NCBI RefSeq assembly: GCF_014529625.1
Contig: NZ_CP076039.1
Span: 744,001-808,000 of the forward strand
From: Candidatus Pelagisphaera phototrophica
Lineage (GTDB): Bacteria; Verrucomicrobiota; Verrucomicrobiia; Opitutales; Opitutaceae
Length of the DNA: 64,000 nucleotides
Direction of reading: 5' to 3'
The notes beneath the pieces were generated by a model that worked only from the letters and a program-made list of their open reading frames with translations, was not told where the DNA came from and did no database searches. Positions within the stretch are counted from its first letter, which is position 1. Each line of letters starts with the position of its first letter. Made by a program: the position numbers and the translations under genes. This document shows, one piece after another, positions 8,084-52,631 of the stretch.

Positions 8084-8261
8084 GAGCACACGCTTTCTTT
8101 AAGCGATCCTTGGTTTAGTCAGTCCTTTTCAATATTTGTGCCGGAACACGGTTCATTTTCGGTGACAAGGTTTTCAATTGGCGCCTTGAAATATGAGTCA
8201 ACTCCTGCTGAACTCCATTCTACACCAGCTTACAAATGAGTCGCGGAACCCTTTTAAATTT

Positions 8262-18850: not shown

Positions 18851-20191
18851 CTAGAGGCTATAGGTGCTTATGGCGATTGTGGCGAAACTTAGGAATAAGA
18901 AAAAGCCGATTATATCGGTCGCGGTAGTAACCATTATGGAGGACGCGAGAGCAGGATCGACTTTTAAGGCGCGCAGGCTAATCGGCACCATAACTCCGGC
19001 AACAGCGGAAGCGATCATGTTGAGTAGCATCGCAGCGCATACAACCACCCCAAGGACTGGTTTCCCTATCCAGAGCCACGATGCAAGCCCGGCGATTCCA
19101 CCAATGGCTAGGCCGTTGATACAGCCGGTGAAGAGTTCTTTGATGAGGAGTTGCCTCCATTCCTTGTTCTCGATTTCGCCGAGCGCCAGAGACCGCACAA
19201 CGATTGTCAGGGTTTGATTGCCCGCGTTGCCGCCAAGCAACCCGATTATTGGAAGAAAGAAAGCGAGTATGGCGTACTTCTCTAGGGCGGGTTCGAAAAG
19301 GGAAATGACCCAGGCGATGCAGAATCCCGTGCACAAATTGACGCAAAGCCAAGGGAGTCGATTGCGGACCGATTGAGGCCAAGCGGTGAATGCAGACTCA
19401 TCTCCAGAGATCCCTACCATGCGCTGCATGTCTTCGGTAGCCTCCTCTTGAACGACATCGAGCACATCGTCCGAAGTAACACGTCCAATGAGAATCCCCT
19501 CGTCGTCTACAACGGGAAGCGAACTGTAGTTATACTTCTGGAAAAGATTCGCGATTTCCTCCTGGTCTGCCGTGACTGGGACTGACCCGACTTCCCTTAC
19601 CATGACTTGGTTGGCTTCCCGTCGGAGATCCCCGAATAGAAGGTCTCTCAAGCGGAGAACGCCTTTTAGCTGACCCGATTCGTTAGTTACGTAGACATAA
19701 ATCGCGCTGTCGTCTTCCTGGTCCTCATCTTGTCGGATCGCTTCTCTTGCCTCTCCAAGGGTGAGGTTTTCGCCAATCGCGTGGAGCTCCTTCTGCATGA
19801 TTCCGCCAGCAGAGTCTTCCGGGTACTCCATCAGGTCGGAGATCTCCGCCACTTCCTCATCAGGAAGTTGCTCCATGATATCGTGAAGCCGGTCTGGCGA
19901 AACATCGCTCAGCGCATCCGCAGCGTCGTCGGACAACATTTCGGGTATAATCTCGCTTACCCGTTCGAGCCGCATGTTTTCCATCAGTTCCGTTTGGAGC
20001 TCCTGTGGAAGTTCGGTTATGACGTCGGCGGTGACCTCGTCGCTAAGGGAGCGGAAAATTTCTCTTATATCGTCTAGCTCCAGATTCTCTATCTCGGCTG
20101 CGATATCGCTAGGATGCATGTCCTTCAGACGGTTGGATCGGAGGGATGATGCCACGGGCTCTGCCGTATTGTAGTCATCCTGTTCCGTCAT
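18851..20191 (-). CDS. mgtE: Magnesium transporter MgtE
   Basis: A 446-residue inner-membrane Mg2+ channel/transporter. The order of domains is standard: an acidic helical MgtE N domain (residues 20-125, MHPSDIAAEIENL, ILDELPQE-like repeats), two CBS domains (about 130-250, with IYVYVTNESGQLKGVLRLRD and YNYSSLPVVDDEGILIGRV), then five membrane helices beginning with RLPWLCVNL and including GGNAGNQTLTIVVRSLALGEI, the signature of the pore. MgtE channels open when cytoplasmic Mg2+ is low. It is a single gene between the sufR-like gene and a divergent hydrolase. Confidence 0.95.
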   Translation of the reverse strand: MTEQDDYNTAEPVASSLRSNRLKDMHPSDIAAEIENLELDDIREIFRSLSDEVTADVITELPQELQTELMENMRLERVSEIIPEMLSDDAADALSDVSPDRLHDIMEQLPDEEVAEISDLMEYPEDSAGGIMQKELHAIGENLTLGEAREAIRQDEDQEDDSAIYVYVTNESGQLKGVLRLRDLLFGDLRREANQVMVREVGSVPVTADQEEIANLFQKYNYSSLPVVDDEGILIGRVTSDDVLDVVQEEATEDMQRMVGISGDESAFTAWPQSVRNRLPWLCVNLCTGFCIAWVISLFEPALEKYAILAFFLPIIGLLGGNAGNQTLTIVVRSLALGEIENKEWRQLLIKELFTGCINGLAIGGIAGLASWLWIGKPVLGVVVCAAMLLNMIASAVAGVMVPISLRALKVDPALASSIMVTTATDIIGFFLFLSFATIAISTYSL

Positions 20192-37953: not shown

Positions 37954-38886
37954 ATGCTATCGCTTTTTAAGAAATTCAAAGAGGGGCTCTCGAAATCCGC
38001 CAAGAATATCGCTGACAAGACAGGCGGGATCTTCCGTCGCGCGAAGCTAGATGCATCGACTATCGAGGAATTAGAAGAAGCGCTCTATGGAGCAGATTTT
38101 GGATACGAGACGACAGAAGAAATCGTTGAAGAAACGAAAGAGGCTTACCGGAAAGACAGGGAACTGCGCGGTCAGGATGTAGCGAAAATCGGATCATCTG
38201 TCCTTAGGCGCGTTTTAGATGGCTCGGAGGGAACGATCGAGTTTAAGGATGACCGGCCCACGGTGATCTGTCTGATTGGGGTAAATGGGTCTGGAAAGAC
38301 CACCACGACCGCGAAACTGGGGAGCCAATGCAAGGCCGAGGGAAGAGAAGTTCTGGTGGCGGCCTGCGACACGTTTCGAGCCGCGGCCATTGAGCAGTTG
38401 AAAGAGTGGACGAACCGATTGGACCTAGAGATCGTTTCCGGTGAACGTGGCGCAGATGCGGCGGCCGTTGCCTACGATGCGTGGCAGGCTGCCAAGAGCC
38501 GAAGAAAGGACACGTTGATCATCGACACGGCGGGTCGTTTGCATACGAAGAGCAATTTGATGGATGAGCTGGCCAAGATTAGGCGTGTATTGCAAAAACG
38601 CGATGAATCGGCACCGCATTACAGCCTTTTGGTGGTTGATGGGAGTTTAGGGTCAAACTCCATTGAGCAAGCTCGTGTTTTTCACGAGAAATTTGGTCTC
38701 GATGGACTGATTGTGACTAAGCTAGACGGGACGAGCAGAGGAGGTTCTCTTGTAGGAATATACCGTGAGTTGAAATTGCCAATTTACTTTTTGGGTTTTG
38801 GTGAGAAGGCTGAGGATTTACAGGCGTACCAGATCGACAATTACGTCGATGCGGTGTTCGGAGTGGAAGAGGAAGTCTCTGCCTGA
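37954..38886 (+). CDS. ftsY: Signal recognition particle receptor FtsY
   Basis: The membrane-associated GTPase that receives SRP-bound ribosomes. At 310 residues it is short for the family because it lacks the long acidic N-terminal domain. The NG domain is complete: a helical N part (residues 1-85), G1 GVNGSGKTTTTAKLG near residue 109, DTFRAAAIEQL, IIDTAGRLHTKSNLMDEL, TKLDGTSRGG and the C-terminal FLGFGEKAEDLQ. The G-domain segment usually written LDATTGQN reads VDGSLGSNS, a substitution. It ends the ribB-ribH-nusB-ftsY cluster. Confidence 0.95.
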   Translation: MLSLFKKFKEGLSKSAKNIADKTGGIFRRAKLDASTIEELEEALYGADFGYETTEEIVEETKEAYRKDRELRGQDVAKIGSSVLRRVLDGSEGTIEFKDDRPTVICLIGVNGSGKTTTTAKLGSQCKAEGREVLVAACDTFRAAAIEQLKEWTNRLDLEIVSGERGADAAAVAYDAWQAAKSRRKDTLIIDTAGRLHTKSNLMDELAKIRRVLQKRDESAPHYSLLVVDGSLGSNSIEQARVFHEKFGLDGLIVTKLDGTSRGGSLVGIYRELKLPIYFLGFGEKAEDLQAYQIDNYVDAVFGVEEEVSA

Positions 38887-38910
38887 GTCGTTGGGGAAAG
38901 CTCTTGATAT

Positions 38911-38941
38911 AAAAACTGCCTCGGCTGCGAAAAGCGGAGGC
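38911..38941 (-). terminator. Intrinsic terminator of the DUF481 gene
   Basis: Read on the minus strand, GCCTC pairs with GAGGC across an inner stem and a TTTTC-containing loop (38918-38941), followed by a run of five T (38911-38915). It lies about 25 bases past the stop of the DUF481 gene and 25 bases past ftsY, so it may serve both convergent transcripts. Confidence 0.65.
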
Positions 38942-38965
38942 GTTGGGAAAGGGGTGTTGATGCAA

Positions 38966-40006
38966 CTACTGCCAGTTCAGCACGAGGCGAATGTAGTAGG
39001 TGGTATCGAGTTCCTTCTTTCCGCTCAGATCCGCGTCACTGTCACAGTCATTAGCGAAACCTAGTCGGACGCTGTATTGATCAGCCTTGAGAGGAAGATC
39101 GAGAGCGGTGTCTTGGTAGAGGCGGAAACTGCCAAAGTCTTCAATGGTAGGCGTAAACTTGATACGATTGACCAACGTACCCCACGTGAGCGTTTCCTTG
39201 TGCTCGAGACCGAAGTCTAGACTGGCGGCGTTTAGCTGCTCGCGGATCGGGGTGGAGAAATCGCTGTATTCCTCAAACCGATAGCCGACACCACCGCGAA
39301 TGTTGAGGAATCTAGAATCGGATTTAGTTATCGTATATCCGAAACCGCCTGCCGTTGTGACGAACAAATCTGTGCCCTTGATAACATCGCGTCCTAGTTC
39401 GCTGCTGACATACCAGTTCCACTCGTCGTTGATCTGGTTCGAGTAGTCTACCCCTACCCGAGCATCATCGGCGCTCTTAATCCCGTCGGTTTCTTCGAAA
39501 TTTGCCCTTGTAAAGAAAGACAGCCTATCATCCGGCCCGTTTAAGGTGGCTCGGAAGCTCATTCCGAATCCAGTGCTGGATTTGTTCCCGCTTTTGCCTG
39601 CGAGGTCGAAAGCCGCTAGGTAAGCCCAACTGCGGCGCATTTTCTTTTCGGTGGGACTCATGCTTCCGATCTGCCAGCTTTCTTTGACATTGGAAACAGA
39701 GGTAGTCATTCTGCCTTTTTCGGTCGTGACTTTCAGAGATCCGTCATCAGAGCCGGTGATTTTTCCTGAGAACGAGGCACCACCCTCAATCGAAACAAAA
39801 ATAGGATCGTCGGTGGTCATTTGTTCGACTTGGGTTTGGTCGACCACTATGTCTCCCGCAAAATCGGTCGATATTTTTATCTTTCCGCCGTCGATTTCCT
39901 GGATTTTACCTACGATTTTGGAGCCAGATTTAGTGACGATGACGTCGCCGATCGAAGATACCACAAACAGGGCGAAGGCCGCTATTGAAGCTAATAGTTT
40001 ATTCAT
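38966..40006 (-). CDS. DUF481 outer-membrane beta-barrel protein
   Basis: A 346-residue secreted protein, taken from the ATG at 40006, which gives a signal peptide (MNKLLASIAAFALFVVSSIG); the frame is open further up but without similarity. Residues 20-130 form a beta-rich N-terminal part with repeated KSGSKIVGKIQEIDGG-like and ASFSGKITGSDDGSL-like segments, as in SHD/Sm-like periplasmic domains. The rest has the alternating strands of the DUF481 barrel (SWAYLAAFDLAG, TFFTRANFEE-like, ending YYIRLVLNWQ with a C-terminal aromatic). Its function is unknown. About 280 bases without a gene separate it from divergent cysE. Confidence 0.8.
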   Translation of the reverse strand: MNKLLASIAAFALFVVSSIGDVIVTKSGSKIVGKIQEIDGGKIKISTDFAGDIVVDQTQVEQMTTDDPIFVSIEGGASFSGKITGSDDGSLKVTTEKGRMTTSVSNVKESWQIGSMSPTEKKMRRSWAYLAAFDLAGKSGNKSSTGFGMSFRATLNGPDDRLSFFTRANFEETDGIKSADDARVGVDYSNQINDEWNWYVSSELGRDVIKGTDLFVTTAGGFGYTITKSDSRFLNIRGGVGYRFEEYSDFSTPIREQLNAASLDFGLEHKETLTWGTLVNRIKFTPTIEDFGSFRLYQDTALDLPLKADQYSVRLGFANDCDSDADLSGKKELDTTYYIRLVLNWQ

Positions 40007-40285
40007 ACTTATTATTTGATTGTCAAAATTGAGTGATTCCATCCCAGCTAGGGTTTTCGATTTGACACAACCGAATGTACTAGAGGTCACAAATCATTGT
40101 TCCATGAGCCTACTTTTCTCAATTCTATTAGTGAAAGTCGACCGACGATAGATTGAACCAGTGCTTTGCAATAAAATATTGACGGGGAGAGTTTTCGAAC
40201 AAAACAGTTTCGAGATTGATTTGCATTGGCGCTCGATGTTCCAGTGCATACGGTCCAAGGTCATTGTTGAGATACAAATTTTAAT

Positions 40286-41101
40286 ATGGACGCTCTAAGT
40301 AACATAATCTGGGAGTCTCTTCGCAAGGAGGCGGATCAGTCGACGAAAGATGAGCGTCTCCTCGTTGCCTATCTCGAAGAAACGGTATTAGGGCAAAATT
40401 CGTTTGAAGCCGCTCTCAGCTACACACTCGCCTCTAAAATGCGGGATGACATCCTCCCCAGCATCACTTTGAGGGATCTGTTTTTTCAAATCCTCGAATT
40501 GGAAAAGGGGCTTCGAGAGTGCATTCTCATAGATCTGCAAGCGGTTAAAGAGCGGGATCCAGCGGCAGGCGGATACCTCTCACCCTTCCTTTTCTTTAAG
40601 GGATTCCATGCTCTGTCTGCGTATCGCTTCGCTCACTACCTTTGGTACGAGGATCGTAAAACCCTTGCTTTGTATCTACAGAGCTTGATTTCGAAAGTAT
40701 TCGGAGTGGACATACATCCTGCGGCGACAATCGGTCATGGAATACTCATAGACCACGCAACAGGGGTGGTAATTGGTGAAACGGCCGTTGTAGGGAACAA
40801 CGTTTCGCTGCTGCACGGAGTCACTTTAGGTGGAACCGGAAAAGAGAGAGGGGATCGGCACCCTAAGGTAGGTGACGGGGTCTTGATCGCTGCGGGAGCA
40901 AAAGTCCTTGGTAATATCAAAATTGGTGAGGGAGCGAAAATTGGGGCGGGTAGTGTGGTGCTCCACAGCGTTAAAGCGCACGGCACCGTTGTTGGCGTTC
41001 CCGCCAAAAATATTGGGACATGCAAAGAGGCGACGCCTGCTCTGGGAATGAACCAGCAGCTCGGGAAGGGCAATGTTTCAGGTTTCGATCCTGGAATCTA
41101 G
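40286..41101 (+). CDS. cysE: Serine O-acetyltransferase
   Basis: Acetylates serine to O-acetylserine, the first step of cysteine synthesis. The 271 residues include a helical N-terminal SATase domain (residues 5-105) and a left-handed beta-helix of hexapeptide repeats. The catalytic-site segments are GIEIHPAATIG-like (VFGVDIHPAATIGHGILIDH), VIGETAVVGNNVSLLHGVTLGG and RHPKVGDGVLIAAGAKVLG. The C-terminal tail, which binds cysteine for feedback inhibition in relatives, is present but divergent. It is followed by aroC after 77 bases. Confidence 0.95.
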   Translation: MDALSNIIWESLRKEADQSTKDERLLVAYLEETVLGQNSFEAALSYTLASKMRDDILPSITLRDLFFQILELEKGLRECILIDLQAVKERDPAAGGYLSPFLFFKGFHALSAYRFAHYLWYEDRKTLALYLQSLISKVFGVDIHPAATIGHGILIDHATGVVIGETAVVGNNVSLLHGVTLGGTGKERGDRHPKVGDGVLIAAGAKVLGNIKIGEGAKIGAGSVVLHSVKAHGTVVGVPAKNIGTCKEATPALGMNQQLGKGNVSGFDPGI

Positions 41102-41178
41102 GTCTTTAAGGTTTCTGCCTGGATATCTAGAGCAAGATTTTCCTTTATTCGTTCGGGTCAGCTCGTAGGGTCGTCGCT

Positions 41179-42267
41179 ATGCCTAATACTTTCGGCAAAC
41201 TATTTTCGATTAGCACCTGGGGTGAAAGCCATGGAGGAGCTGTGGGCGTTGTCGTGGATGGGTGCCCTCCAAACCTGTCGATAACGGCTGAGGAAATTCA
41301 GCTCGAGTTAGACCGGAGGCGGCCAGGCCAGAGTGATATCGTCACGCCTCGAAAAGAGTTGGACAAGGTTCAGATACTATCTGGAGTGTATGCGGGCCGT
41401 ACGACGGGAACCCCGATTTCCATGTTGGTCTTCAACAAAGATCATCGCCCAGAAGCGTATGCTGAAATGAAGGAAAAGTTTAGGCCTTCCCACGCTGACT
41501 ACACTTATCAAACGAAGTTTGGACATCGAGATCCGGAAGGAGGGGGCCGCTCTTCTGCCCGTGAGACAATCGGGCGGGTTGCCGCGGGAGCCATAGCGAA
41601 GAAGATTCTTGGTCTTGCCGTTGGAGTTGAAACGATTGCCTACGTGAAGCGGATTCAGGATATCGAGATGCCCGAAGATGCCGATGTATCCCTCGAACTG
41701 ATCGAGGCAAGTGCGGTTCGATGCCCACATGCAGGCACGGCCCAAGCAATGATCGACCGAATCCGTGAGGTGCGAAGCCAAGGCGATTCCGTGGGCGGCG
41801 TCATCGAATGTTTGATACGCAATTTGCCGGTTGGGCTCGGTGAGCCGGTGTTTGACCGATTTGAGGCGGATTTAGCGAAGGCGATGCTTTCCCTTCCTGC
41901 CACCAAAGGGTTTGAAGTGGGGAGTGGGTTCTCGGGGACAAGACTGTCGGGCTCCGAGCACAATGACCACTTCGAGATTCGAGACGGCCGAGTTCGAACA
42001 AAGACAAACCGTTCGGGGGGAATTCAAGGGGGAATTACGAATGGGGAGGAAGTCCGTTTTCGCGTTGCTTTCAAACCAACGGCAACACTTCTTCAGTCGC
42101 AGCCGACAGTGAACAAAGATGGGAATGAGACCGAACTGAAGGCTCGAGGGCGACATGATCCGTGCGTTTTGCCGCGAGCCGTCCCGATTGTTGAAGCGAT
42201 GGCTAATCTAGTGACGATTGATCATTGGATGCGTCAGCATGCGCAAAATCGCTTGTTCTCATTTTAA
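41179..42267 (+). CDS. aroC: Chorismate synthase
   Basis: Converts EPSP to chorismate with reduced FMN as the last step of the shikimate pathway. The 362 residues are normal length. Signatures are [18 protein letters not shown] at the N terminus, [15 protein letters not shown], the phosphate/FMN segment [14 protein letters not shown] and [21 protein letters not shown], and [17 protein letters not shown] near the end. Nothing unusual is seen. Confidence 0.97.
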
Positions 42268-42301
42268 CCTTCCGAGAATATAGCGTCAGTATTTCGGGTA
42301 T

Positions 42302-43081
42302 ATGTCGGAACGGTTTGTCTACCTTATTTTGGGTTCTCGTGGCGGTGGCCGCTCCTCGGTTGTTTCAGATCTTGTAGATTTTGGACTGGATTCTTCTAAC
42401 GGATCTCAGGTTTTCATTTCGGAAGATGATGCGGCTCACCGGGAGTCAGTGCTCCCTATTCGTCACGCCCTCTGCGAACAGAAGCGGTATTTGTGGAAGG
42501 GTGCTGACGAAGGCGTTATTGTGGAAGCTTCAAGTGAAACGGTTTTTGTTGTCGCAGATGGGATCTCGGATCCAGCGGATTTTGTAGAAGCTTTTTTCAA
42601 CTGGCTACAAGGATCGGATTACGAATTGGGTCGGATAATAACCATAGCCGATTGCAATCGGATACAGCAGGAACGAAAGCTGCTTCAATGGTATGATTGT
42701 TGTATCCATTTTTCCGATGTTGTTTTACTTAGTAATAGGAGCGAGGTTTCAAGCAAGTGGATTGACGAGTTTCAAGATCGGTACCTAAAAGATTACTACC
42801 CTTGCCTGTTTGTGTTTGTTAAGAAGGGCCGCCTTCCCAATCCGTCATTGGTTCTCGAGCCAGAAGCACGACGGATTTCCAAACTCTTCGATGAAGCAGA
42901 TGAATATGTTTTCCTTGATGATGAGGATGAGGAAGAGGTTGATGAGGAAGACGAACCTGCTGCGGGAGATCCTTCGAAGGACCCCTTTCTCGCTAAGCTT
43001 GGAAACGGACGAAGAAGCCTGGCTTTGCCGAATATCCGAAACCTGATTGTTTCGGAAGACGATACTCTAGCCGGGGATTGA
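42302..43081 (+). CDS. CobW/G3E-like P-loop protein with altered Walker A, acidic tail
   Basis: A 259-residue cytoplasmic protein that looks like a diverged CobW-type (G3E) nucleotide-binding protein. The N terminus YLILGSRGGGRSSVVSDLVD has the position of a Walker A loop, but the Lys is replaced by Arg. VFVVADGISDPADFVEAFFNW and GRIITIADCNRIQQ resemble the later CobW strands. No zinc-binding CxCC motif is seen. A run of Asp/Glu (about residues 200-222) leads to a short C-terminal tail. Whether it binds GTP is open. Its last 15 bases overlap the convergent oxidoreductase gene. Confidence 0.6.
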   Translation: MSERFVYLILGSRGGGRSSVVSDLVDFGLDSSNGSQVFISEDDAAHRESVLPIRHALCEQKRYLWKGADEGVIVEASSETVFVVADGISDPADFVEAFFNWLQGSDYELGRIITIADCNRIQQERKLLQWYDCCIHFSDVVLLSNRSEVSSKWIDEFQDRYLKDYYPCLFVFVKKGRLPNPSLVLEPEARRISKLFDEADEYVFLDDEDEEEVDEEDEPAAGDPSKDPFLAKLGNGRRSLALPNIRNLIVSEDDTLAGD

Positions 43082-44134
43082 AGGGGCTGAAAGAAGGACT
43101 TTTTTGGAGTCGTTTTTCGCGCTTTCGTAGATTGCATTGATGAGCGCAACGGCCTTGCGTGCTTCTGTCGCGTCTACGATTGGAGAACGGTTCTCCTGAA
43201 TGGCTTTCACTACATCTTCAAAATTGAGCTGGTGACCCGAGAAATCGATGGCACTCGGATCGTTCGCTCCAATTCCTTTGGTTCCCGTTTTCACCATGAG
43301 CTCAGAGCGAATGCGATCGTCCTCAGACGTTTCTTCTTTGAATTCCCAAACTCGAAATTTGTCGTCGGCGAGGAAAGCAGATCCTTCGCTCCCGCAAATC
43401 TGCACCTCAGCGGAATGCCCGTCTTTCGACCAGCAGGCAGTCGAGCCTTGGATGACTCCGCGAGCGCCGCTTTCGAATTCGAGCATGGCAACTGCAGTGT
43501 CTTCGACTTCGATCCGTTCGTGAGCTAACGTCGCTGTGGATGCAGTGACGGATTTAACCGGCCCTGCAACGTAGAGTAGTTGGTCGATTGCGTGAATTGA
43601 CTGGTTCATGAGCGCTCCGCCACCATCTAGTGCCCAGGTGCCGCGCCATTGGCCGGAATCATAGTAGTCCTGATCTCGATACCATTTGATATAGGCATCA
43701 GCTAGAGAAATCTGGCCGAATCGGCCTTTGTCGACGGCCTTTTTCAGTGCGACAAGCCCGGGATTAAAACGCCTATTGAAAATGCCGGATATAGTAACGC
43801 CATTCTCCTTTCCGGCAGCGGCCATCTCGTCGACGCGATCCGTTGTGATTTCCAATGGCTTTTCACAAATAACATGTTTGCCCGCCCTCGCTACCGCTAT
43901 CGCCGGTTCTAGATGCGCCCCAGACGGCGTGGCTATCGTGACGATCTCCAGTTCCGGGTCGGCTAGAAACGCATCCAAATCGTTGCTGGCGGCACAGCCG
44001 AACTCGTCAGCGATCGCTTTTGAGCTCTTCGGATTGCGACTATAGACGGAATGCAGTTCGGAGCCCGCCATGGCCTCGATCGCCTTGGCGTGAAACTTCG
44101 CGATCATTCCAGATCCAATGATACCGAATTTCAT
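43067..44134 (-). CDS. Gfo/Idh/MocA family NAD(P)-dependent oxidoreductase
   Basis: A 355-residue dehydrogenase acting on a sugar or sugar-like substrate. The Rossmann domain begins [20 protein letters not shown] (residues 2-21), with EIVTIATPSGAH and the family-typical ICEKPLEI. The C-terminal alpha/beta domain contains WALDGGGALMNQSIHAIDQLL, the usual substrate-site segment. It is the last gene of a minus-strand operon and overlaps the transporter gene by 4 bases. Its substrate is unknown, but the operon suggests a polyol, inositol-like compound or oxidised sugar. Confidence 0.9.
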   Translation of the reverse strand: MKFGIIGSGMIAKFHAKAIEAMAGSELHSVYSRNPKSSKAIADEFGCAASNDLDAFLADPELEIVTIATPSGAHLEPAIAVARAGKHVICEKPLEITTDRVDEMAAAGKENGVTISGIFNRRFNPGLVALKKAVDKGRFGQISLADAYIKWYRDQDYYDSGQWRGTWALDGGGALMNQSIHAIDQLLYVAGPVKSVTASTATLAHERIEVEDTAVAMLEFESGARGVIQGSTACWSKDGHSAEVQICGSEGSAFLADDKFRVWEFKEETSEDDRIRSELMVKTGTKGIGANDPSAIDFSGHQLNFEDVVKAIQENRSPIVDATEARKAVALINAIYESAKNDSKKVLLSAPSIPG

Positions 44135-45741
44135 GATTCGCGTTCGTTTTTGAGAAACGAGTAAATTCCTATGATGAACAGAATTGCGAGGAGGACGAGA
44201 CCTGCCGCAGGTATCATCCCGTGCCAGTCTCTCATGTGAGACTTCCCGTAGAGGACCCAGACTGAGCCGATAGTGGCGACGCCGGTGGCAAATCCCATGA
44301 GAACGTTCCAGATAATGCGGGTGGTACCTTCCGGTCGGTTCTCACCGAGCACCTTCTTGGAATTCATCATCAGGAAGAAAGTAAAATAGGCGATTGGGAT
44401 TAGGGAGCCGCCGATTACAGAGGTTGGAATAGCCAAGGCAGCCGCGGCCGCACCGGTCCATACAAAGGGACCAGCGAATCCGGCAATACCGGAAACGGCA
44501 CACCCAATGTAGTGTGCATTCTTATCGCCGCGTTTCCCGAGTAGCTCCTGAAAGGCGAGCCCGTTGATCAGCATGAGAATGATGATCGTAGATACAGCCA
44601 TTCCGAGGACGCCGAGTCCGAAAATGGTTTGGGAGACGACCTTGCCTGCGAGCGGCTCGAGAGTGGTGGCCAACTGGAAATTGTCTCGTTTGACCAAGCT
44701 GAGTGCCAGCTCAAGGTCGGCGGCGTTGGTCGTTCCGGGATGGGCTTCCTGGAGTTGGGCGAGCGTTCCGGCTGCGACGGGAGAGTTGGGGTCGACGTCG
44801 CCGATTTTTGTGTGGAACTGGGAGGCAGCGGCGATGACGACGCAGCTGGTCGCTAGAAAGAAAGGAATGAAAAGGCCAATGGACAGGTCGAATATCGAGA
44901 AGGAGCGATGGGTCTTCCCCCAGCTCTTTTTGAGCAATGAGTAAGGGAGCAGCCAGGTCATGTTGATTCCTACGGCAGTACCAAAGGCGGCGATGATGAT
45001 GTCCCTTTGGTCAGTAATGATTTTGGCGGTCCACCAGTCGGGGTGGCTGGATGCGGCAATGAGATCGGCGTAACCTGCCGCGGGAGAGATGAGTAGTTTG
45101 GGATTAGGGATTAAGCCGCCGAAAAGAGAGCCCCATTGAATGCCTCCCGTTGTCGCTAGTGTGATGACGACTAGAATGAAGGAGATAACGATCATGCCGA
45201 CCATGACCTTGATAATTCGGTCGAAGGTCCTGGCCCCCTTGCCTTCGGATTCGTAGAGGACGTTGATGGCGAATCCGATCGTTAGGAGAATTAGGCATAT
45301 GATAGCGGTCGAGGTGTTGCTGTCGCCCACGAAGGGCAGCAGGTTTTGCTGGATGGCGGCGCGGCCGAGGTTGAACTGGGGCATGCACCAGACGATATTG
45401 GCCATTATGGTGGCGATCATCCAGGCCCAGCCCAGAGCGGGGGAAAGGTGAGTGTTGACGAGCCCAAAGGGCGCTTTCTCGGTCGAGAGGGTGACGTAGG
45501 CGATGGCCGAGAGCATTATGATTCCGCAGATCATCGCGAGAGGTTGCAGCCAGAGGAGCCCGAAGCCTGCGATCACACCCAGGTAGAGGGCTCCGGCGAG
45601 CGAGCCGCCGCCGAGGGTGATGGCGCCTTGGAGCCAACCCGGACCGGATAGTTTGGTGAAAATTCCCAGCCTTTTGATTAGGGGGGAGGCTTCTGCTTCG
45701 GCGATTAAGGCGGCTTCGCGATTTGATTCTTCTGTGCTCAT
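44131..45741 (-). CDS. Nramp-superfamily transporter lacking the metal-binding motifs
   Basis: A 536-residue inner-membrane protein with about 11-12 helices and the Nramp/LeuT-type fold. The opening [20 protein letters not shown] (residues 31-50) aligns with helix one of Nramp, but the DPGN metal ligands are replaced by GGGS-type sequence. In helix six, [15 protein letters not shown] (about residues 254-267) has no MPHN. Without those ligands transport of Mn or Fe is unlikely. The gene overlaps by 4 bases both the isomerase-like gene upstream and the Gfo/Idh gene downstream, which points to an organic substrate of the same pathway. Confidence 0.85.
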
Positions 45742-46565
45742 AGGGAGGGGGTGCTTTTGAATGCTTTTTTGAGGTTTTGTAGACTTTCCTTGGCAATATT
45801 CTCGGCGCCAGGGGAGTAGTCAAAGACTTCGACGGAAACCCACCGGTCGTAGCCGGCGTTGTCGAGGGCGTCTGCGATGGGTTGAAATTCTAGGTCGCCC
45901 ATACCGGGACCCAGGAGATTCGGATCGTTGGCGTGGAAGTGAATTGTGTAGTCGCGGCTCGAATCGATGATTTCGGGAATCGATCCAGGCTCAGCGGACA
46001 TGGCCTTAACATCGAGATGCAGGCGGATGTTTGGGTGGTTGATCTTGTCTATCAACTTAATCGTCTCTGCCGCGGAAGTTAGGAAATTCGTCTCGTTCTG
46101 TCCAAGCGGTTCCATGGCGATGGATACGGCGAGCGTCGCACAATGTTCGCCAAGCGAGCGAAGTAGATCAGCGGCTCGGTTGGCCGCATCATCGTAGGAA
46201 TCATTTGTATTCAGATTTCGTTGCTTGGGACTCCCCCAAACCATCACTTTACCGCCCATCGCAGCACAGAGGTCGGCTAGGTGCTTTCCGAAGTCGAGAG
46301 TCTTTTGGCGAACCGCTGAATCAGGGGTCGTCAAATGCATTCCTTCCGGTTTGACGAGGAGCCAGTGGAGTCCGACGACTTCGAGGCCATGCTCTCGAAC
46401 GATGTTACCCATGGACTTTGCTTCAAGTATCGTCAGGTCACGTGGGTCCTCATTCAGCGTAAACGGAGCAATCTCGAGCCCTTGATACCCTGTATCGAAA
46501 GCGCTGGCACACGTGTCGCTCAGGCTCCAGCCTTGGTAAGTTTCGTTACAAATAGCGAATTTCAT
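45738..46565 (-). CDS. Sugar phosphate isomerase/epimerase-like TIM barrel
   Basis: A 275-residue xylose-isomerase-like TIM barrel. The frame is open to 46721, but the ATG at 46565 starts the fold ([19 protein letters not shown]). Metal-ligand segments are [41 protein letters not shown] (Glu), [10 protein letters not shown] (Asp), IHFHANDPN (His) and WVSVEVFDY (Glu) near the end. Members isomerise or epimerise keto-sugars or cleave related compounds. Start and stop overlap the neighbouring transporter gene in ATGA, so translation is coupled. Confidence 0.88.
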
Positions 46566-46593
46566 ATCGGATAGCCTTATAGGGCGGGAGAGA

Positions 46594-47370
46594 CTATTCA
46601 AAAAAGGTCTGAGTATTGGTTTTAGATTCTGGCGCCCAGATCTTGATACTATCGACCCAACCGATGTCGTCGAAAGAGCCAAATCCGATGAATCCCTGCT
46701 CGAATGGCACGTCGTCAGCAATCATTATGGGAGTGAGCATATCATCGAAGTATAGAGCGACAGTGCTCTTCGCCACATCGCGGACTATGCGAATCTTACG
46801 CCAAACATTGACTCCCCAGTCTACTCCCACGGTCCGGAAGTCTGTGATGGGAGTTCGGGGCGACTCGTTAACGACGAAAACATTGTGAGCGTTGTTGTCA
46901 CCTGTCTTCGCTACGTGGATATATATGTAGTGAGCGGGATCTTGGAAACCGAAGAAAAAGCAATGGTCTCTATGAGCGTACCCTCCCGCTTTGGTGGGGT
47001 CTGGATTTTCCTTCATGAACTGGGCAATTGGAGTGCCTTTGACGCCACTTTGAAGGATAGCCACTTCGAGAACAAAGCTTCCAAAAGTCTTCCCTTTAAT
47101 TAGGGCGATATTCAGGGGCGAACGGTGTGGGGGCTCGTACTTGCTCTTACCTTCGAGGGCCAGAAACTGTTTACCCTTTTTCTTTTTTAGTACCCAAGCA
47201 GACGAGTCCGTCATCATGAAGTCGTCATACGAATTTTTGGAGTTGAAGGATTGTTCGTATTGGAGGGCGTAGCCTTCAGGAAGCTCTACAGCGGATAGGG
47301 AAACAAGAGAGATGAGCCCGATGAAGAGGCAGGTCACCTGGTGGAGTTGATTAGTGGTGGGTGCGGTCAT
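46594..47370 (-). CDS. Secreted DUF1080/LamG-like carbohydrate-active protein
   Basis: A 258-residue secreted protein with a signal peptide (about residues 1-28) and a single beta-sandwich. The segments [61 protein letters not shown] and [20 protein letters not shown] are typical of DUF1080/concanavalin-like domains. It is first in the four-gene minus-strand operon and probably releases or binds the sugar that the transporter, isomerase and dehydrogenase then use. Activity is inferred. About 225 bases without a gene lie between it and the divergent SDR start. Confidence 0.75.
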
Positions 47371-47595
47371 GAAGGGATAGAGATGGCAGTGTTGGGAAGG
47401 AAGTTAGGACGGCTCGTTACCCGAATGCAAATGATAAACCCCAAAATCACACACCTGTAGGGTTTTTGTTGGGGAGGGGTCGTGTTGGAAGCCGAACCAA
47501 GAGAGTTTACCGTTTGAGCACGTCGCTCGACTGTTTCAGTTAATTTGAGCGGTATGAGGTTGCTGATTTTTGATTGGACGCCATCAAGGAAAGGC

Positions 47596-48381
47596 ATGGA
47601 TACAGAGCTGAAGGGCAAGGTTGTGATCGTCACGGGAGGCAATAAAGGAATTGGCGAAGGGATATCCCGTTCGTTCGCGGCGGAGGGAGCCATCGTTGTG
47701 GTATTCGGTCGCAATCGGGAAGAGGGGGAGACCTTTTGCGAGGCTCTGCGATCGGAAGGGGCACAAGCGGCTTTCCGGTTGGCAGAATTGACCAGAGAGT
47801 CGGAGGTGTTCGCGGCCGTCTCCCAGACGCTGGAGGAATTTGGACGTATCGATGTGCTGGTTAACAACGCCGGCGTGAATGACGGAGTGGATTTGATGGC
47901 CAGTGTAGAGGCGTTTCGCGGTTCGCTGGAAAAGAACCTAACGCAGTGCTACGCCTTGGTGCACCATTGTTTGGACGCTTTGAAGGCGAGCCGAGGCAAT
48001 ATTGTAAACATTGGTTCCAAGGTTGCGGAAACCGGGCAAGGAGGAACCTCGGGATACGCGGCGTCCAAGGGAGGCCTGAATGCGCTTACTCGGGAGTGGG
48101 CTCTGGATTTGGCGGGCGACGGCATCCGCGTCAATTGCGTCATTCCCGCTGAGGTGATGACCCCGCTTTACGAGCGGTGGATCGCGCAGCAGTCGGATCC
48201 GAAAGGCGATTTGAAGGCGATCTGCGATTCGATCCCGTTAGAGAAGCGGATGACGACGATCGAGGAAATCGGAGACACTGTGGTTTTTGTAGCGTCGCCT
48301 AAGTCCTCGCACACGACTGGGCAGATTTTGTATGTGGATGGGGGCTACACCCATATCGACAGACGGTTCACAACTGATTAA
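47596..48381 (+). CDS. Short-chain dehydrogenase/reductase
   Basis: A 261-residue classical SDR from the ATG at 47596 (the frame opens earlier at 47545). The cofactor motif is TGGNKGIGEG (residues 12-21), NNAG lies in VLVNNAGVNDG, and the catalytic Ser, Tyr and Lys appear in NIGSKVAETG and SGYAASKGG. The C-terminal GQILYVDGGYTH is normal. It resembles sugar (fucose-type) or glucose dehydrogenases, but the substrate is not certain. It is divergent from the transporter operon and may act on the same sugar. Confidence 0.9.
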   Translation: MDTELKGKVVIVTGGNKGIGEGISRSFAAEGAIVVVFGRNREEGETFCEALRSEGAQAAFRLAELTRESEVFAAVSQTLEEFGRIDVLVNNAGVNDGVDLMASVEAFRGSLEKNLTQCYALVHHCLDALKASRGNIVNIGSKVAETGQGGTSGYAASKGGLNALTREWALDLAGDGIRVNCVIPAEVMTPLYERWIAQQSDPKGDLKAICDSIPLEKRMTTIEEIGDTVVFVASPKSSHTTGQILYVDGGYTHIDRRFTTD

Positions 48382-48412
48382 TCTGATATTGGTAAATGGG
48401 CGCTCGGCCCAG

Positions 48413-48441
48413 CGGCAGGCTCTGGGTGGTGAGCTCTGCCG
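48413..48441. terminator. Strong hairpin between convergent genes
   Basis: CGGCAGGCTC pairs with GAGCTCTGCCG with one bulged T and an 8-base loop. It lies between the SDR stop and the convergent TIM-barrel gene stop. No U-tract follows on either strand, so a role in termination or RNA stability is only inferred. Confidence 0.45.
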
Positions 48442-48467
48442 AACCAAGATCGCGTGCTGCCTGAACC

Positions 48468-49385
48468 TTAAGCCAGTTCGCCAACAACGTGTTCGATCAG
48501 TCGCTTAGTCGCTAGGATACCTTTAACGGGGTCTACGCCATGACCTTCGAATTCGATCCCAATGGAGCCCTTGAATCCTGAGTCCAGGACAATCTTCATC
48601 ATCCGCCTGTAGTCGATATTGGTTTCGTTACCTTCGCTGTCGAATTCCTTGGACTTTGCACAGACGATTTTGGCATAGGGCATGAGTTCTTCAACTCCCC
48701 TATAGGGATCGTACCCATGAAAATTCTGAAAGTCGGGCAAGGTGCCGCAGTTTCGCTTCTCGACCTTACTCATGACATCGGCGAGCCACTTTCCGTTGCT
48801 GGAGAATCCACCGTGATTTTCGACTAGGATATTCATCCCAAAAGGGGTGGCGACATCGCAAAGCTGTCGTAGACCATCTATCGCATACTTCTTTTGTTCC
48901 TCGAAGTCTCCGTCGGACCGGCAGTCGACGCGTATCGCATTTCCGCCGAGCAAGCGAACCGCCTCCATCCAAGGAATATAGCCCTCTACAGCATTGTAAC
49001 GCGTTGATGAGTCCGGAGAATCGAGAGCAACATCCGACCGGCAAAGCATCATTGTGCAAGTGGCTCCGACATCGTTGCTTCGTTGTTTCAATTCTCGGAA
49101 GAAACGCGTGTCTCTCACTTTGTCTAGAATATGCCCATTGAAGTACTCCAAAGCGGTGATTCCAGTGCCTTCGACGACGGTTTTTGGAAAATCTAGGATG
49201 TCAAAGGTCCCGTCTCTAAGTTGCCGATTGAAGGAATACTGTTGGACTGCTAGGGTGAGCCCATTGGATGCGAGAGTACCTTTGGCTTGAAGAAACTGGG
49301 GAAGGGCAAGGGTTCCTGCTCCAACGGCGAGCTGCTTTATCGTCTCGCGACGGTTGAGCAAATTTGGGGTGTGATTCTTGGACAT
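48468..49385 (-). CDS. Tat-exported sugar isomerase-like TIM barrel
   Basis: A 305-residue xylose-isomerase-like TIM barrel carrying an N-terminal twin-arginine signal (NRRETIKQLAVGAGTLALP), so it is expected outside the cytoplasm. ALEYFNGHILDKVRD, IRVDCRSDGDFEEQKK, NILVENHGGFSSN (Glu-Asn) and SIGIEFEGHGVD carry the likely metal ligands. Exported TIM barrels of this group are frequent in PVC bacteria, often with oxidoreductases, but have few proven activities. Confidence 0.85.
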   Translation of the reverse strand: MSKNHTPNLLNRRETIKQLAVGAGTLALPQFLQAKGTLASNGLTLAVQQYSFNRQLRDGTFDILDFPKTVVEGTGITALEYFNGHILDKVRDTRFFRELKQRSNDVGATCTMMLCRSDVALDSPDSSTRYNAVEGYIPWMEAVRLLGGNAIRVDCRSDGDFEEQKKYAIDGLRQLCDVATPFGMNILVENHGGFSSNGKWLADVMSKVEKRNCGTLPDFQNFHGYDPYRGVEELMPYAKIVCAKSKEFDSEGNETNIDYRRMMKIVLDSGFKGSIGIEFEGHGVDPVKGILATKRLIEHVVGELA

Positions 49386-49447
49386 GGATTAAAGACTGAT
49401 CAAAATATAGATCTCAGCAATTCCTTTTCTCAGACAAACGGGAACAT

Positions 49448-51148
49448 TCACATTGCCAGTATTTTAGCCGACATAGGCTCCTTCTGAGGAAATAGCTTCT
49501 CGATGGTCATGAGTGACAGGGTGAGAAAGGAAGGAAGAAAGATTAATGTGACGAAGGTTGAAAACATTAGGCCGAAAAGGACAATTGCACCGACCCCGCG
49601 GTAAAGTTCCGTTCCCGCTCCAGGGAAGACGACTAATGGGGCGATCCCGAATACGGTTGTTGTCGTGGACATCAAAATTGGACGGATTCTTGATAGAGTG
49701 GCAGCGTGAATGGATTCGGAGATGCTTATACCTGCCCTGAGGCTGTCGATCGTTTTGCTGACGATGAGTATTGGATTGTTAACTACGGTCCCAAGTAGTA
49801 TAAGAAATCCAAGCATCGTTATCATGTCGAAAGGCTGCTGAATGGGTTTAAGTCCAAAGAAGCTGAATATAAATCCGGAAGCGTTTAAAAGCCACAGCCC
49901 GGCGATCCCTCCGGCGATCCCAATAGGCACAGTCGCCAGGATGATGAATGGAAATCCCCAGTGGGAAAAGACTGCTGCGAGCAGGAGATAGGAGAGAACG
50001 ACCGCGATTAGAAAGTTGCCAATCAAGGCCTCGCGGGTTTTTTGAAGTTGATCGCCCGCACCCGTAACATCGACTATGACGTTTGAATCGATTTCACCTT
50101 GGTCCCGTAAATGGTTGACGATTTCGTTTCGAACGATCTCGACAGCATCCTCCAGAGCGATTGACCGAGGAGGGATGATATTCAAGGTAACCGTCCGTTC
50201 TCCGTTCAGGCGACGAATAGACGAAGTATCCACTTTTTCCACAAGGTCCGCAACCGCATCGACTGAGACGATGCCTCCTGCGGGTGCGTACAAGGGTAGA
50301 TTTGCCAATTCATCTAGGCTTCCTATCTCTCCGTCACGACTGTAGAGAAATACATCTATACGTTGCCCATCTAGGAGAAACTCGTCCACATAAGCACCGT
50401 CGGTGAGAGCAGACAAGGCGAAGCCAAACGACTGGTTCGTGAATCCCAGTTCGGCGGCTCGATCCCAATTGGGGCGAATTTCCACCATGGGTTGTTGCAG
50501 GCTCAATGCGGAAGGTTCGGAGTTTACCTGAGGTGAATCGAGTACCTCGAATGCTCTTCGATAGGCCTTGTCGGCGACAGTGTAAATTATGGAAAGATCC
50601 GCTCCACTTATATCGAGATTTACGCTACGAGAACCTCCGTCGTTGCTGGAAATGATCGATCCTCGACTATTGAAATTTCTTATGCCCGGAAATTTCTCAA
50701 AGTAGTTGGAAAACACATCGCTGAGTTCATCGATGCGTGTAGGATCTTCGCATTCAGCTACGATTTGTATCATCCCAGTCCTCAAAATCATCAGCATTCG
50801 GGCAATCGGGGGAACGTCTCTTTTGAGGTGGACTTCGCTGTCAGGATTGAGCCGGTTCATGTAAGGGACGAAATAATCATTCACCTCTCGGGCAATTTCG
50901 TCCATCGTCTCAATATTATATCCGGGAGGCATTATAAGCCGCGAGAAAATCTTAGCTTCTTCTCCCTCCGGAAGATACTCGGCAGAAGGGGTTAGCGTAT
51001 AGATGATCAGAAAGCTTAGCCCCACGGTCGTCAGGGCTCCTGCTAAAGCTCGTTTCCAGGAATAGGAGATTTTTCGGACAGATTGATCGAAGAATGTGAA
51101 TACCTTAGAAGGTGACTTTCGCTTCGATTCGCTACTGATCGGGTCTCT
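49448..51148 (-). pseudogene. RND efflux transporter, C-terminal half only
   Basis: The reading frame covers only the second half of an RND (hydrophobe/amphiphile) pump: helix seven in ALTTVGLSFLIIYTLTPS, the second porter domain (FSRLIMPPGYNIETM, QQPMVEIRPNWDRAAELGF) and helices eight to twelve (GTVVNNPILIVSKTIDSLRAG, RIRPILMSTTTTVFGIAPL). In the same frame protein-like sequence continues upstream of the GTG at 51025 (SKVFTFFDQSVRKISYSW) to an in-frame TAA at 51149-51151. The N-terminal half of about 450-500 residues is absent, and no membrane-fusion or outer-membrane partner is near. It looks like a 5'-deleted remnant. Confidence 0.75.
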
Positions 51149-51200
51149 TTATGCGATGAGTCGCTTGGAGGATGGAACGCAAGATAAGTGATCCTGAGCC

Positions 51201-51629
51201 TTGTGTCTCTTGAATGAAAAATATAAGTCCATAAATGTGAAAATTCTGTATCAACGTAATTCATCGTCGCACGAGAGGAAGAGATTAGGCCCCTATGAAA
51301 TCGAATCCTTGATCGCTCCGGGTCAGGAGGGGCAGTTCACTGCTTATCGTGTAAGGGTTGAAGCAGGCCAAGAAACGAGTGAGAGCTATCACAAAATCGC
51401 CGAGGAATGCTATTATGTTGTCAGTGGGACCGGAAAGGCGATACTAGATGATTCTGAATACGAGTTAAACCCCGGAGATTTTCTGCGTTTGCCACCAGGA
51501 ACGCGGCACAAGTTTGTCACGAGCGACTCCCCGCTCGAAATGCTGGACATCCATTCCCCTGGCTCGCGGCCGGATCGGGATGTGTATTTTGTGGGTGAGA
51601 CACCGGAAGGGTTTACCTCGAAAGAATAG
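51201..51629 (+). CDS. Small cupin-domain protein
   Basis: Up to 142 residues; the start is uncertain (TTG at 51201 or GTG at 51237). One cupin beta-barrel is visible: VEAGQETSESYHKIAEECYYVVSG with first-motif ligands, and ELNPGDFLRLPPGTRHKFV with the second-motif His. Cupins of this type are often mannose-6-phosphate isomerase-like or dioxygenase-like; the activity is unknown. Its start region lies against the truncated RND remnant on the opposite strand, so it may have been brought here by the same rearrangement. Confidence 0.75.
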   Translation: MCLLNEKYKSINVKILYQRNSSSHERKRLGPYEIESLIAPGQEGQFTAYRVRVEAGQETSESYHKIAEECYYVVSGTGKAILDDSEYELNPGDFLRLPPGTRHKFVTSDSPLEMLDIHSPGSRPDRDVYFVGETPEGFTSKE

Positions 51630-51950
51630 ATTGGGGGTCCTCAAGAGAATTTTTAGCCGCGAGCAATAGCTCTTTTGCGGGTCAAAGCCTCTCGTGGGTG
51701 GCAGCAGAGGTTGCTGAATACGATAGGGCCGAAGTCGCGCTGTCGACCATAGGCTGGGTTGGAGAGCTCAGATATCGACCGCTCGGGAAGAAAGTTTATG
51801 GTCCAGATCGTTGACATGCTATCGGAGGACTGGGCCAGCCTTCCCTACCTAAATTCGGCATTCGTCAATCTGAAAATCTATGGGCTCGAAGAGACACCCA
51901 TTTGTTCCGCAGGAACAACAAGCTAAGCGATGTTAAAATTTATTTCCCCA
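51630..51950. other. Intergenic region holding dispersed repeat copy B
   Basis: About 320 bases between convergent genes with no supported coding frame. The only recognised content is the repeat at 51877-51936. No clear terminator U-tract is visible. Confidence 0.5.
51877..51936. repeat. Dispersed intergenic repeat, copy B
   Basis: Matches 4942-5001 in the same orientation, best over 51897-51936 (35 of 40 identical). It contains a perfect hairpin GTTCC-GCA-GGAAC near 51904-51916; in copy A one base of that stem differs. As in copy A the element lies just past the stop of a minus-strand gene and faces a plus-strand gene end. Confidence 0.55.
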
Positions 51951-52631
51951 CTACCAAGGTGCCTTGTCGACTCGGAGAAACTTCAAAACTTCAGGGGGTG
52001 GACCGTCGAACTTGGCCAAGGCGACGTTGCCGACGTAGCCGACTTCTCGAGCGCCTTCGTTGGTGGTGTAGTAGCCGCCCATGCTTAGGTCACGGTATTT
52101 GGCGAAGAACTCAGCCGCATTCTTGTATCTACGTTTCGCTTTCGGGAGGTAGCAAATGTCGTCGCATATTTTGGTCTGCTGCGCCTCCGAGAGATCGTAA
52201 AACGGTTTTTTGAAACGCTTTTGAGACTCGTCGTTGATCCACTTGAGTCCAGGGAGAATGACTTCGCGGTCGCTAACCTGAGCCGGGTAGGGGGCGCTTA
52301 CCCATTCGTCGATAAAGTCGGGTACCTTCAGTTCGCTGGCACTGGGGGAGTCGCCTGTTCTCGGAAGAATGACGTCTGAAAGGGCAGTGACCGTCTTTAG
52401 TTGTTCCGCATTTAGAATACGTTCCCAGGGAGGACTCTCGGGTATAACGAGATTTGGATCGGAACCATAGCCTTGAGGGGTGGAGATGGATGGACCGGAT
52501 TGTCCGAAGGACCCCGTGTTCAGAAATGGAACGGTGGCGGACGCGGTGAGCATCCATTTGATCGCGGATCGGCGATCCATGCGCTTGGATTCGACTAGCT
52601 CACGACGAGTAGATTCGTTTAGGGTATCCAT
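51951..52631 (-). CDS. Gluconate 2-dehydrogenase subunit 3 family protein
   Basis: A 226-residue small subunit that accompanies a GMC-type flavoprotein. A twin-arginine signal (DRRSAIKWMLTASATVPFL) is present after a short leader, so the complex is exported folded. LKTVTALSDVILPRTGDSPSA and VPDFIDEWVSAPYP are characteristic of this family. It starts one base after the GMC gene stop, so the two are an operon; the subunit probably carries the flavoprotein across the membrane. A cytochrome c subunit, the usual third component, is not adjacent. Confidence 0.9.
   Translation of the reverse strand: MDTLNESTRRELVESKRMDRRSAIKWMLTASATVPFLNTGSFGQSGPSISTPQGYGSDPNLVIPESPPWERILNAEQLKTVTALSDVILPRTGDSPSASELKVPDFIDEWVSAPYPAQVSDREVILPGLKWINDESQKRFKKPFYDLSEAQQTKICDDICYLPKAKRRYKNAAEFFAKYRDLSMGGYYTTNEGAREVGYVGNVALAKFDGPPPEVLKFLRVDKAPW

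Follow-up and report, generated by a model that had tools for sequence, protein, structure and literature searches.

The available portions of the published descriptions divide the Pfam family PF01566 into the Slc11 (Nramp) metal transporters, the NRMTs and an "orphan" outgroup, or paraphyletic set, of Nramp-related proteins in which the metal motifs are missing (PMC10606218, PMC9606685, PMC4072509, PMC12873925). Canonical Slc11 proteins are there characterized by DxxN together with A/CxxM, and the NRMT Mg2+ transporters by DxxG-TxxA/T, in which the Asp is retained (PMC8806188). The available part of one source suggests that the outgroup may link, in evolution, transporters of divalent metals to those whose substrates are not metals (PMC4072509). 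Among the open-licence papers listed by literature searches, judged by titles and the opening lines of abstracts, none proposed that a PF01566 protein carries a sugar or a sugar acid. Here we analyze a PF01566 carrier gene of Candidatus Pelagisphaera phototrophica, located in a stretch of 64,000 nucleotides (contig NZ_CP076039.1, positions 744,001 to 808,000), hereafter the window, whose own numbering is used. We consider it probable that the product works as a secondary carrier with the LeuT/Nramp fold and brings into the cell a small compound derived from sugar, either a keto-sugar or a sugar acid, for example a hexuronate or a hexonate. Import of such a compound is favoured over metal transport because the metal ligands have been lost, the genes lie in sugar-breakdown clusters and a carrier of the major facilitator superfamily (MFS) takes the place of the Nramp-like carrier in relatives.

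The carrier scored 81.1 bits against PF01566 (gathering cut-off 29.8) and fell short of the curated Nramp model NF037982 (29 bits, cut-off 50). The single sequence gave no phmmer match at E 1 among the PDB sequences, and a profile of 27 relatives was needed. An AlphaFold2 model built from 27 sequences (predicted local distance difference test, pLDDT, 84; predicted template-modelling score 0.85) had the LeuT/Nramp fold, with helix breaks at residues 44-45 in transmembrane helix 1 (TM1) and 255-258 in TM6. The comparison with Nramps and other LeuT-fold carriers, which the original prediction had proposed, gave DraNramp (6d91) as the best match of the predicted model, with a Z score of 36.4 and a root-mean-square deviation of 2.5 over 391 residues. 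EleNRMT, which like the carrier has an Nramp fold outside canonical Slc11, matched at Z 28.7-28.9 (7qia, Z 28.7), and Foldseek also ranked Nramps first. Since both the PF01566 score and the best structural matches are those of Nramps, the carrier is Nramp-like in family and predicted fold. It shares with SLC11/Nramp proteins such as MntH and DMT1 the Pfam family, the predicted fold, a TM1 that starts with GPG, and the breaks in TM1 and TM6. The first non-Nramp match was AdiC (Z 24.7), and carriers of the NKCC1/NCC type appeared in Foldseek from rank 24 on. That the next folds are those of amino-acid and cation-chloride carriers would suit a different explanation, namely that the protein transports an inorganic ion or some other organic solute, its linkage to sugar genes having arisen by chance in the gene order of some lineages; we regard this as improbable on the evidence of gene linkage given below.

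Homologous loci were taken from a survey of the phylum, in which 34 of 387 genomes had a match, and from a scan of named genomes, from which the best 80 of 549 confirmed loci were used, so that the sample leans toward close relatives. The window and 120 further loci were examined. Ten had no carrier open reading frame (ORF), namely L066, L069, L070, L075-L079, L091 and L157; L075-L079 are paralogue regions of the window's own genome, and L091 and L157 had tblastn matches from which no ORF was picked. Exclusion of carrier fragments shorter than 450 aa (L067, L068) left 109 loci, and removal of those with at least 92% identity left 93. The carrier clade was taken as 28 of the 34 matching genomes, G035, G087, G101, G114, G127 and G383 being excluded with a best piece below 150 bits.

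TM1 of the carrier has GGGS at residues 44-47 and TM6 has the motif AVGINM. In TM8, Ser384 is nearly invariant and may be comparable to a LeuT Na2 site. The 27-relative profile placed GGGS under the DPGN of human NRAMP2 with no gaps, in a weak match (E 0.0097). When the window protein and 16 relatives, two of them with GAGS, were aligned by MAFFT to E. coli MntH and to nine Nramps that have DPGN, GGGS fell at DPGN and GIN at MPH. Of the 93 non-redundant loci, 90 have the motif T[LI]GGGS and three have GSGS or GAGS instead, and all 93 have A[VI]GINM; in two of them a string of the form DP[GS][NG] or MPH occurred somewhere along the ORF. GGGS and GIN thus occupy the columns of the Slc11 signature, DxxN in TM1 and A/CxxM in TM6, and the column of the NRMT Asp (DxxG-TxxA/T) has no Asp, so that the carrier clade fits neither Slc11 nor NRMT. 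The carrier also differs from SLC11/Nramp in having no acidic residue at the column of the TM3 Glu, where the alignment is gappy. In the rows aligned, the side chains by which Slc11 proteins bind metal have thus been lost, not displaced: the reading of GGGS for DPGN, and of no MPHN in helix six, from which the original prediction started was borne out by profile, alignment and motif count, and ligands at shifted positions, which would have spoken against it, were looked for in the aligned rows and ruled out by the profile and the MAFFT alignment. By published descriptions only, in the parts available, the orphan outgroup resembles the carrier clade in belonging to PF01566 without the metal-binding and most of the proton-path residues; those parts mention no sugar context, unlike what was found here.

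The loss of the Asp, Asn and Met ligands, including the Asp that NRMTs retain, makes it hard to maintain that the protein still moves a divalent metal, whether as a hydrated ion or coordinated through carbonyl groups of the backbone, and so supplies metal to the enzymes encoded beside it. The closest solved folds are those of metal Nramps, and some neighbours are metal enzymes, such as a nickel-pincer epimerase in some relatives; TIM-barrel epimerases (triose-phosphate isomerase-type barrels) are metal-dependent as well. On the other hand, the window already encodes MgtE (18851-20191), and no Rfam family, M-box included, reached its gathering score in positions 38000-52000 of the window or in nine related loci. 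No Mg riboswitch was thus found in those regions; only a subset of NRMT genes has an M-box. Taken with the gene context and the carrier replacement described below, we hold metal transport to be improbable.

The carrier gene lies in a set of four genes, with a further gene divergent from them:

46594..47370, minus strand: head gene, probable secreted jelly-roll protein, 258 aa, with a signal-like N-terminus by eye
45738..46565, minus strand: TIM-barrel sugar epimerase/isomerase (PF01261, 131.6 bits), with ATG at 46565
44131..45741, minus strand: Nramp-superfamily carrier (PF01566, 81.1 bits) without metal ligands, 536 aa
43067..44134, minus strand: Gfo/Idh/MocA oxidoreductase (PF22725, PF02894, PF01408), 355 aa, immediately downstream of the carrier
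47602..48381, plus strand: divergent short-chain dehydrogenase/reductase (SDR), matching the L-fucose dehydrogenase model NF052481 (FucosDh, 363.8 bits, cut-off 300)

On the minus strand the order is head gene, TIM-barrel gene, transporter and Gfo/Idh gene, head to tail. The gap between the first two is 28 bases, and the transporter overlaps the epimerase-like gene and the Gfo/Idh gene by 4 bases at each junction. An ORF check agreed with the coordinates and frames first given for the four genes and with both overlaps. The first three genes are conserved in five distinct close relatives (L040, L083, L084, L085 and L086; L041 and L085 are one stretch, counted once). The Gfo/Idh gene is the fourth gene in L040, L083 and L086, and L084 and L085 end at a contig edge before it. 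A cultured relative, Haloferula luteola YC6886 (L105), also has the set. An Opitutales UBA5694 record has a transporter homologue with 97% identity. Counts of promoter and terminator candidates were no higher than in shuffled sequence. The divergent SDR gene is possibly part of the same catabolic region.

The nearest solved sequences to the Gfo/Idh protein were 3q2k (1e-55) and 3q2i, followed by DgpA (1.3e-29) and inositol dehydrogenase, with glucuronide-3-dehydrogenase (3.6e-23) lower. The first two are named merely oxidoreductase and dehydrogenase in the PDB; we take them to be UDP-GlcNAcA (UDP-N-acetylglucosaminuronate) 3-dehydrogenases. The protein did not reach the cut-off of the IolG model (151.3 bits, cut-off 355). 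For the TIM-barrel protein, scanned as 45738-46562 minus the initiator Met, the nearest NCBIfam model was IolO, 5-keto-L-gluconate epimerase, at 114.7 bits against a cut-off of 300, and the nearest solved proteins were TM_0416 (2zvr, 1.2e-19) and tagatose 3-epimerases. These relatives would suit C3 chemistry on hexoses or hexuronates, a fit that does not fix the substrate.

A special case of sugar-compound import would be that the carrier takes up specifically a C3-oxidized (3-keto) sugar made outside the cytoplasm, which the Gfo/Idh protein re-reduces and the TIM-barrel protein epimerizes. The relation of the Gfo/Idh protein to DgpA and glucuronide-3-dehydrogenase is in its favour; Gfo/Idh relatives also catalyze many other reactions, which counts against it. 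In the parts of the descriptions available, 3-ketoglycoside and levoglucosan-type pathways employ Gfo/Idh and TIM-barrel enzymes as found here (PMC9007349, PMC7676230, PMC10066097), and the PF06439 genes of some carrier-clade relatives are a further likeness; unlike here, no Nramp-type carrier figures in those parts. On the levoglucosan dehydrogenase model the Gfo/Idh protein scores only 116.8, where the cut-off is 650. The window's head gene had been called secreted and DUF1080-like. It does head the set, but the DUF1080 (PF06439) label was rejected by sequence: Pfam and NCBIfam scans gave no match at E 0.1, and hhalign against PF06439 neighbours, with thin alignments, gave a probability of 0.7%. 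A head-gene profile found nothing useful among PDB sequences (best E 0.99), and a predicted model of low confidence (pLDDT 64) had a ConA-like jelly-roll fold, nearest to 1oq1 (Z 15.6). Elsewhere PF06439, the 3-keto-disaccharide hydrolase family, accounts for 7 of 111 close neighbours of the carrier, and profiles of these neighbours matched in 14 of the 93 loci, the other 79 having no match in the stretches examined. We therefore treat the specific 3-keto variant as unlikely, though less so than metal transport.

Association of the carrier with a Gfo/Idh gene was recurrent. With profiles, since simple ORF picking undercounts this family, a Gfo/Idh gene was found on the same strand within 250 bp downstream in 33 of the 82 loci with at least 600 bp of downstream sequence, and on the opposite strand in none. 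Stretches above 60 bits with the Gfo/Idh profile numbered 52 in 1.43 Mb, 36 of them at the carrier-downstream position. In 13 of 89 loci the gene directly before that of the carrier encodes the window-type epimerase, so that the neighbourhood survey suggested at the outset recovered both partners, the isomerase in fewer loci. Of 112 same-strand neighbours within 250 bp, 111 were scanned for family matches (that of L140 was excluded for masked letters): 31 matched Gfo/Idh, 10 PF01261, 7 PF06439 and 5 sulfatase. None of the 25 families listed, of 60 in all, is a metal-homeostasis family; a canonical metal gene context was rejected on this ground, the finding that would have told against a non-metal role, homologues mostly beside metal-homeostasis genes, was not made, and the result weighs against metal transport.

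The linkage also recurs over the carrier tree, where 39 of the 85 rows scored have it and 12 changes are counted, a pattern that is difficult to reconcile with an accident of gene order; this tree and the Gfo/Idh tree are quick trees with long-branch warnings. Of the 387 phylum genomes, 28 have the carrier, 29 a close Gfo/Idh orthologue and 20 both (Fisher 1.8e-20, uncorrected for kinship).

The clearest indications of the compound came from related loci. In L048-L051 and L061 the carrier is accompanied by profile matches for glucuronate isomerase, D-mannonate oxidoreductase and nickel-pincer hexonate epimerase, to which a gluconokinase match is added in L048-L051 and 6-phosphogluconate dehydrogenase in L061. 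NCBIfam cut-offs were exceeded by glucuronate isomerase in L048 (594.6) and L061 (636; cut-off 387), and also in L065, by D-mannonate oxidoreductase in L048 (358.7), L051 (362.8) and L061 (429.6; cut-off 281), by hexonate epimerase in L048 (591; cut-off 500), by gluconokinase in the related locus L065 (172.8; cut-off 113.75) and by 6-phosphogluconate dehydrogenase in L061 (749.5; cut-off 426.7). The set is on the carrier's strand in L061, L047 and L065. LarA-type enzymes can, according to the available part of the source, interconvert D-gluconate and D-mannonate (PMC11770544), and the set is accordingly read as a path from D-glucuronate through fructuronate, mannonate and gluconate to 6-phosphogluconate, an order that we infer from the family names. 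Some carriers thus appear to lie near a complete-looking gene set leading from glucuronate to 6-phosphogluconate. The genome of the window encodes a glucuronate isomerase away from the carrier.

Replacement of the carrier was examined among the phylum genomes with a threshold of at least 390 bits for a Gfo/Idh orthologue (gap from 393 to 342) and at least 370 for the MFS protein (gap from 371 to 244). In a genome-wide search, eight of the nine genomes that have the Gfo/Idh orthologue but lack the Nramp-like carrier contained an MFS carrier, whereas at E 1e-40 the same MFS was found in none of the 20 genomes with both carrier and Gfo/Idh (Fisher 2.1e-6, kinship again uncorrected), a contrast to which we give the most weight. 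Since the genomes are related, these p-values overstate the number of independent events. The MFS gene adjoins the Gfo/Idh gene in five of the nine, divergently in L181-L184 and on the same strand in L187; the three of these five proteins that were scanned match PF07690 and PF00083. One or both of the carrier-locus epimerases are present in L181-L184, and L187 has hexonate epimerase and mannonate oxidoreductase over the cut-off, a gluconokinase profile match, Gfo/Idh, and the MFS carrier in place of the Nramp-like one. Exchange of the two carriers was seen inside two genera (g46 and g48) and one family (f40), and the Gfo/Idh tree, from which rows below 200 bits or 200 residues were excluded, has five changes of partner type. 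MFS organic-anion/sugar carriers thus adjoin the same Gfo/Idh gene in related genomes, but belong to an unrelated fold and family; the nearest models, TIGR00895 and TIGR00891, are both far below cut-off. That the replacement is an MFS and not a metal carrier argues against metal transport, and the Gfo/Idh gene keeping an adjoining carrier even when the carrier family changes argues against an accidental linkage with another solute.

Two side observations belong here. An apparent mannonate to gluconate step by a nickel-pincer hexonate epimerase, followed by gluconokinase, is found in L048-L051, L061 and L187. In five further genomes, all of the window's family (L201-L205), this MFS carrier is paired with a more distant Gfo/Idh paralogue, which makes MFS with Gfo/Idh itself a recurrent pair.

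Several results weigh against import of a sugar-derived compound. The Gfo/Idh gene is not immediately downstream in 49 of the 82 loci, and 43 of the 93 rows have none of the tracked partners, which is also a point for another solute. Eight of the 28 carrier genomes lack a close Gfo/Idh orthologue, three of them having a distant one downstream (L055-L057). The tracked catabolic partners are found in none of the 10 rows of a Planctomycetota clade, where a pyridine-nucleotide reductase gene lies upstream in eight, a class II tRNA synthetase gene downstream in six and both in four. Nine Akkermansiaceae-type loci, most of which lack sugar partners, have a divergent UbiA prenyltransferase gene upstream, outside the same-strand tally, which excludes such opposite-strand genes. 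Seven of the nine have a DUF420 gene further on (the UbiA and DUF420 labels come from one scanned representative each). By eye, such surroundings resemble those of cytochrome-oxidase or haem assembly; the UbiA position is silent on sugar and may point to haem or metal assembly, and it would suit a metal carrier. With regard to the replacement, the orthology thresholds were chosen after sight of the score gaps, and the MFS gene lies apart from the Gfo/Idh gene in G251, G265 and G313, three of the eight MFS genomes. G215 has neither carrier type, and G066, alone in having both, lacks a close Gfo/Idh orthologue. Because the solutes of MFS families are so varied, the exchange sets only loose limits on the class of substrate. 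With regard to glucuronate, the mannonate-oxidoreductase-like SDRs of L047 (243.5) and L065 (238.4) are below the cut-off of 281, an opposite-strand gene separates the carrier from the glucuronate genes in L048-L050, and L051 has these genes on the strand opposite to the carrier. In the genome of the window itself no UxuA was found, and the hexonate-epimerase model reached only 174 bits against its cut-off of 500.

The Planctomycetota arrangement, with the pyridine-nucleotide reductase gene upstream and, downstream, a tRNA synthetase gene of class II (D, K, N), can be seen in L123, L133, L135 and L143. The UbiA loci are L096, L097, L102, L103, L104, L107 and L114, and also L093 and L095.

Import of a sugar acid or keto-sugar would proceed as follows. 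The compound would be released outside the cytoplasm and taken across the membrane by the carrier through LeuT-type alternating access. The glycine-rich breaks of TM1 (44-45) and TM6 (255-258) would form a pocket for an organic solute where Nramps hold the metal, and the imported compound would then pass to the two enzymes encoded with the carrier, the Gfo/Idh oxidoreductase and the TIM-barrel epimerase. We infer transport as such, its inward direction and the pocket at the glycine breaks. The substrate may differ between lineages, and that of the window may be a free uronate, a 3-keto sugar or an L-fucose-related compound. The clearest contexts, those with glucuronate, mannonate and gluconate enzymes, point to sugar acids or keto-sugars over polyols or inositol. 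The proposal of sugar, polyol or inositol-like import instead of metal transport therefore stands in its non-metal and sugar-type parts, by GGGS/GIN, neighbours and MFS swap, with polyols and inositol less favoured. A non-metal branch of the superfamily with a catabolic partner set is likewise supported, by the Gfo/Idh linkage, the neighbour tally and the glucuronate sets. For the clade as a whole, that is 28 of the 387 phylum genomes and the Planctomycetota records, we lean, with somewhat less assurance than for the window protein, towards dedicated sugar-acid or keto-sugar importers repeatedly swapped with MFS carriers. If this is correct, the Nramp superfamily is not restricted to metals, and the "Nramp-related" proteins contain an extant link that joins metal transporters to the LeuT-fold carriers of organic solutes. 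The clade offers a testable substrate class, defined partner enzymes and a natural control in the replacing MFS, and a PF01566 match alone is no ground for annotation as a metal transporter.

The same genome has three more Nramp-related paralogues, at G000:C1:2081647 (L076), 596893 (L077) and 1017534 (L078), in which TM1 has GSGE, GSGE and GNGE, respectively, instead of DPGN; sulfatase-like genes, recognized by eye, lie near all three. An interrupted PF01566 gene at G000:C1:3240569-3241552 (L001; 7938-8978 of L075) scored 133.8 bits, above the carrier of the window, and a TIM-barrel isomerase-like gene lies upstream of it on the same strand (L075, 9438-10295).

Within the window, the gene at 42302-43081 is convergent with the Gfo/Idh gene and shares 15 bases with its end; its CobW-type match is borderline, 21.0 bits where 20.7 are required. 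Adjoining the operon, 48468-49385 encodes a TIM-barrel protein of PF01261 whose N-terminus looks signal-like by eye, and sulfatase genes are present at 3298-4761 and 8193-10142. Together, the FucosDh-type SDR, this second TIM barrel and the sulfatases of the window hint at the use of fucose or of a sulfated polysaccharide.

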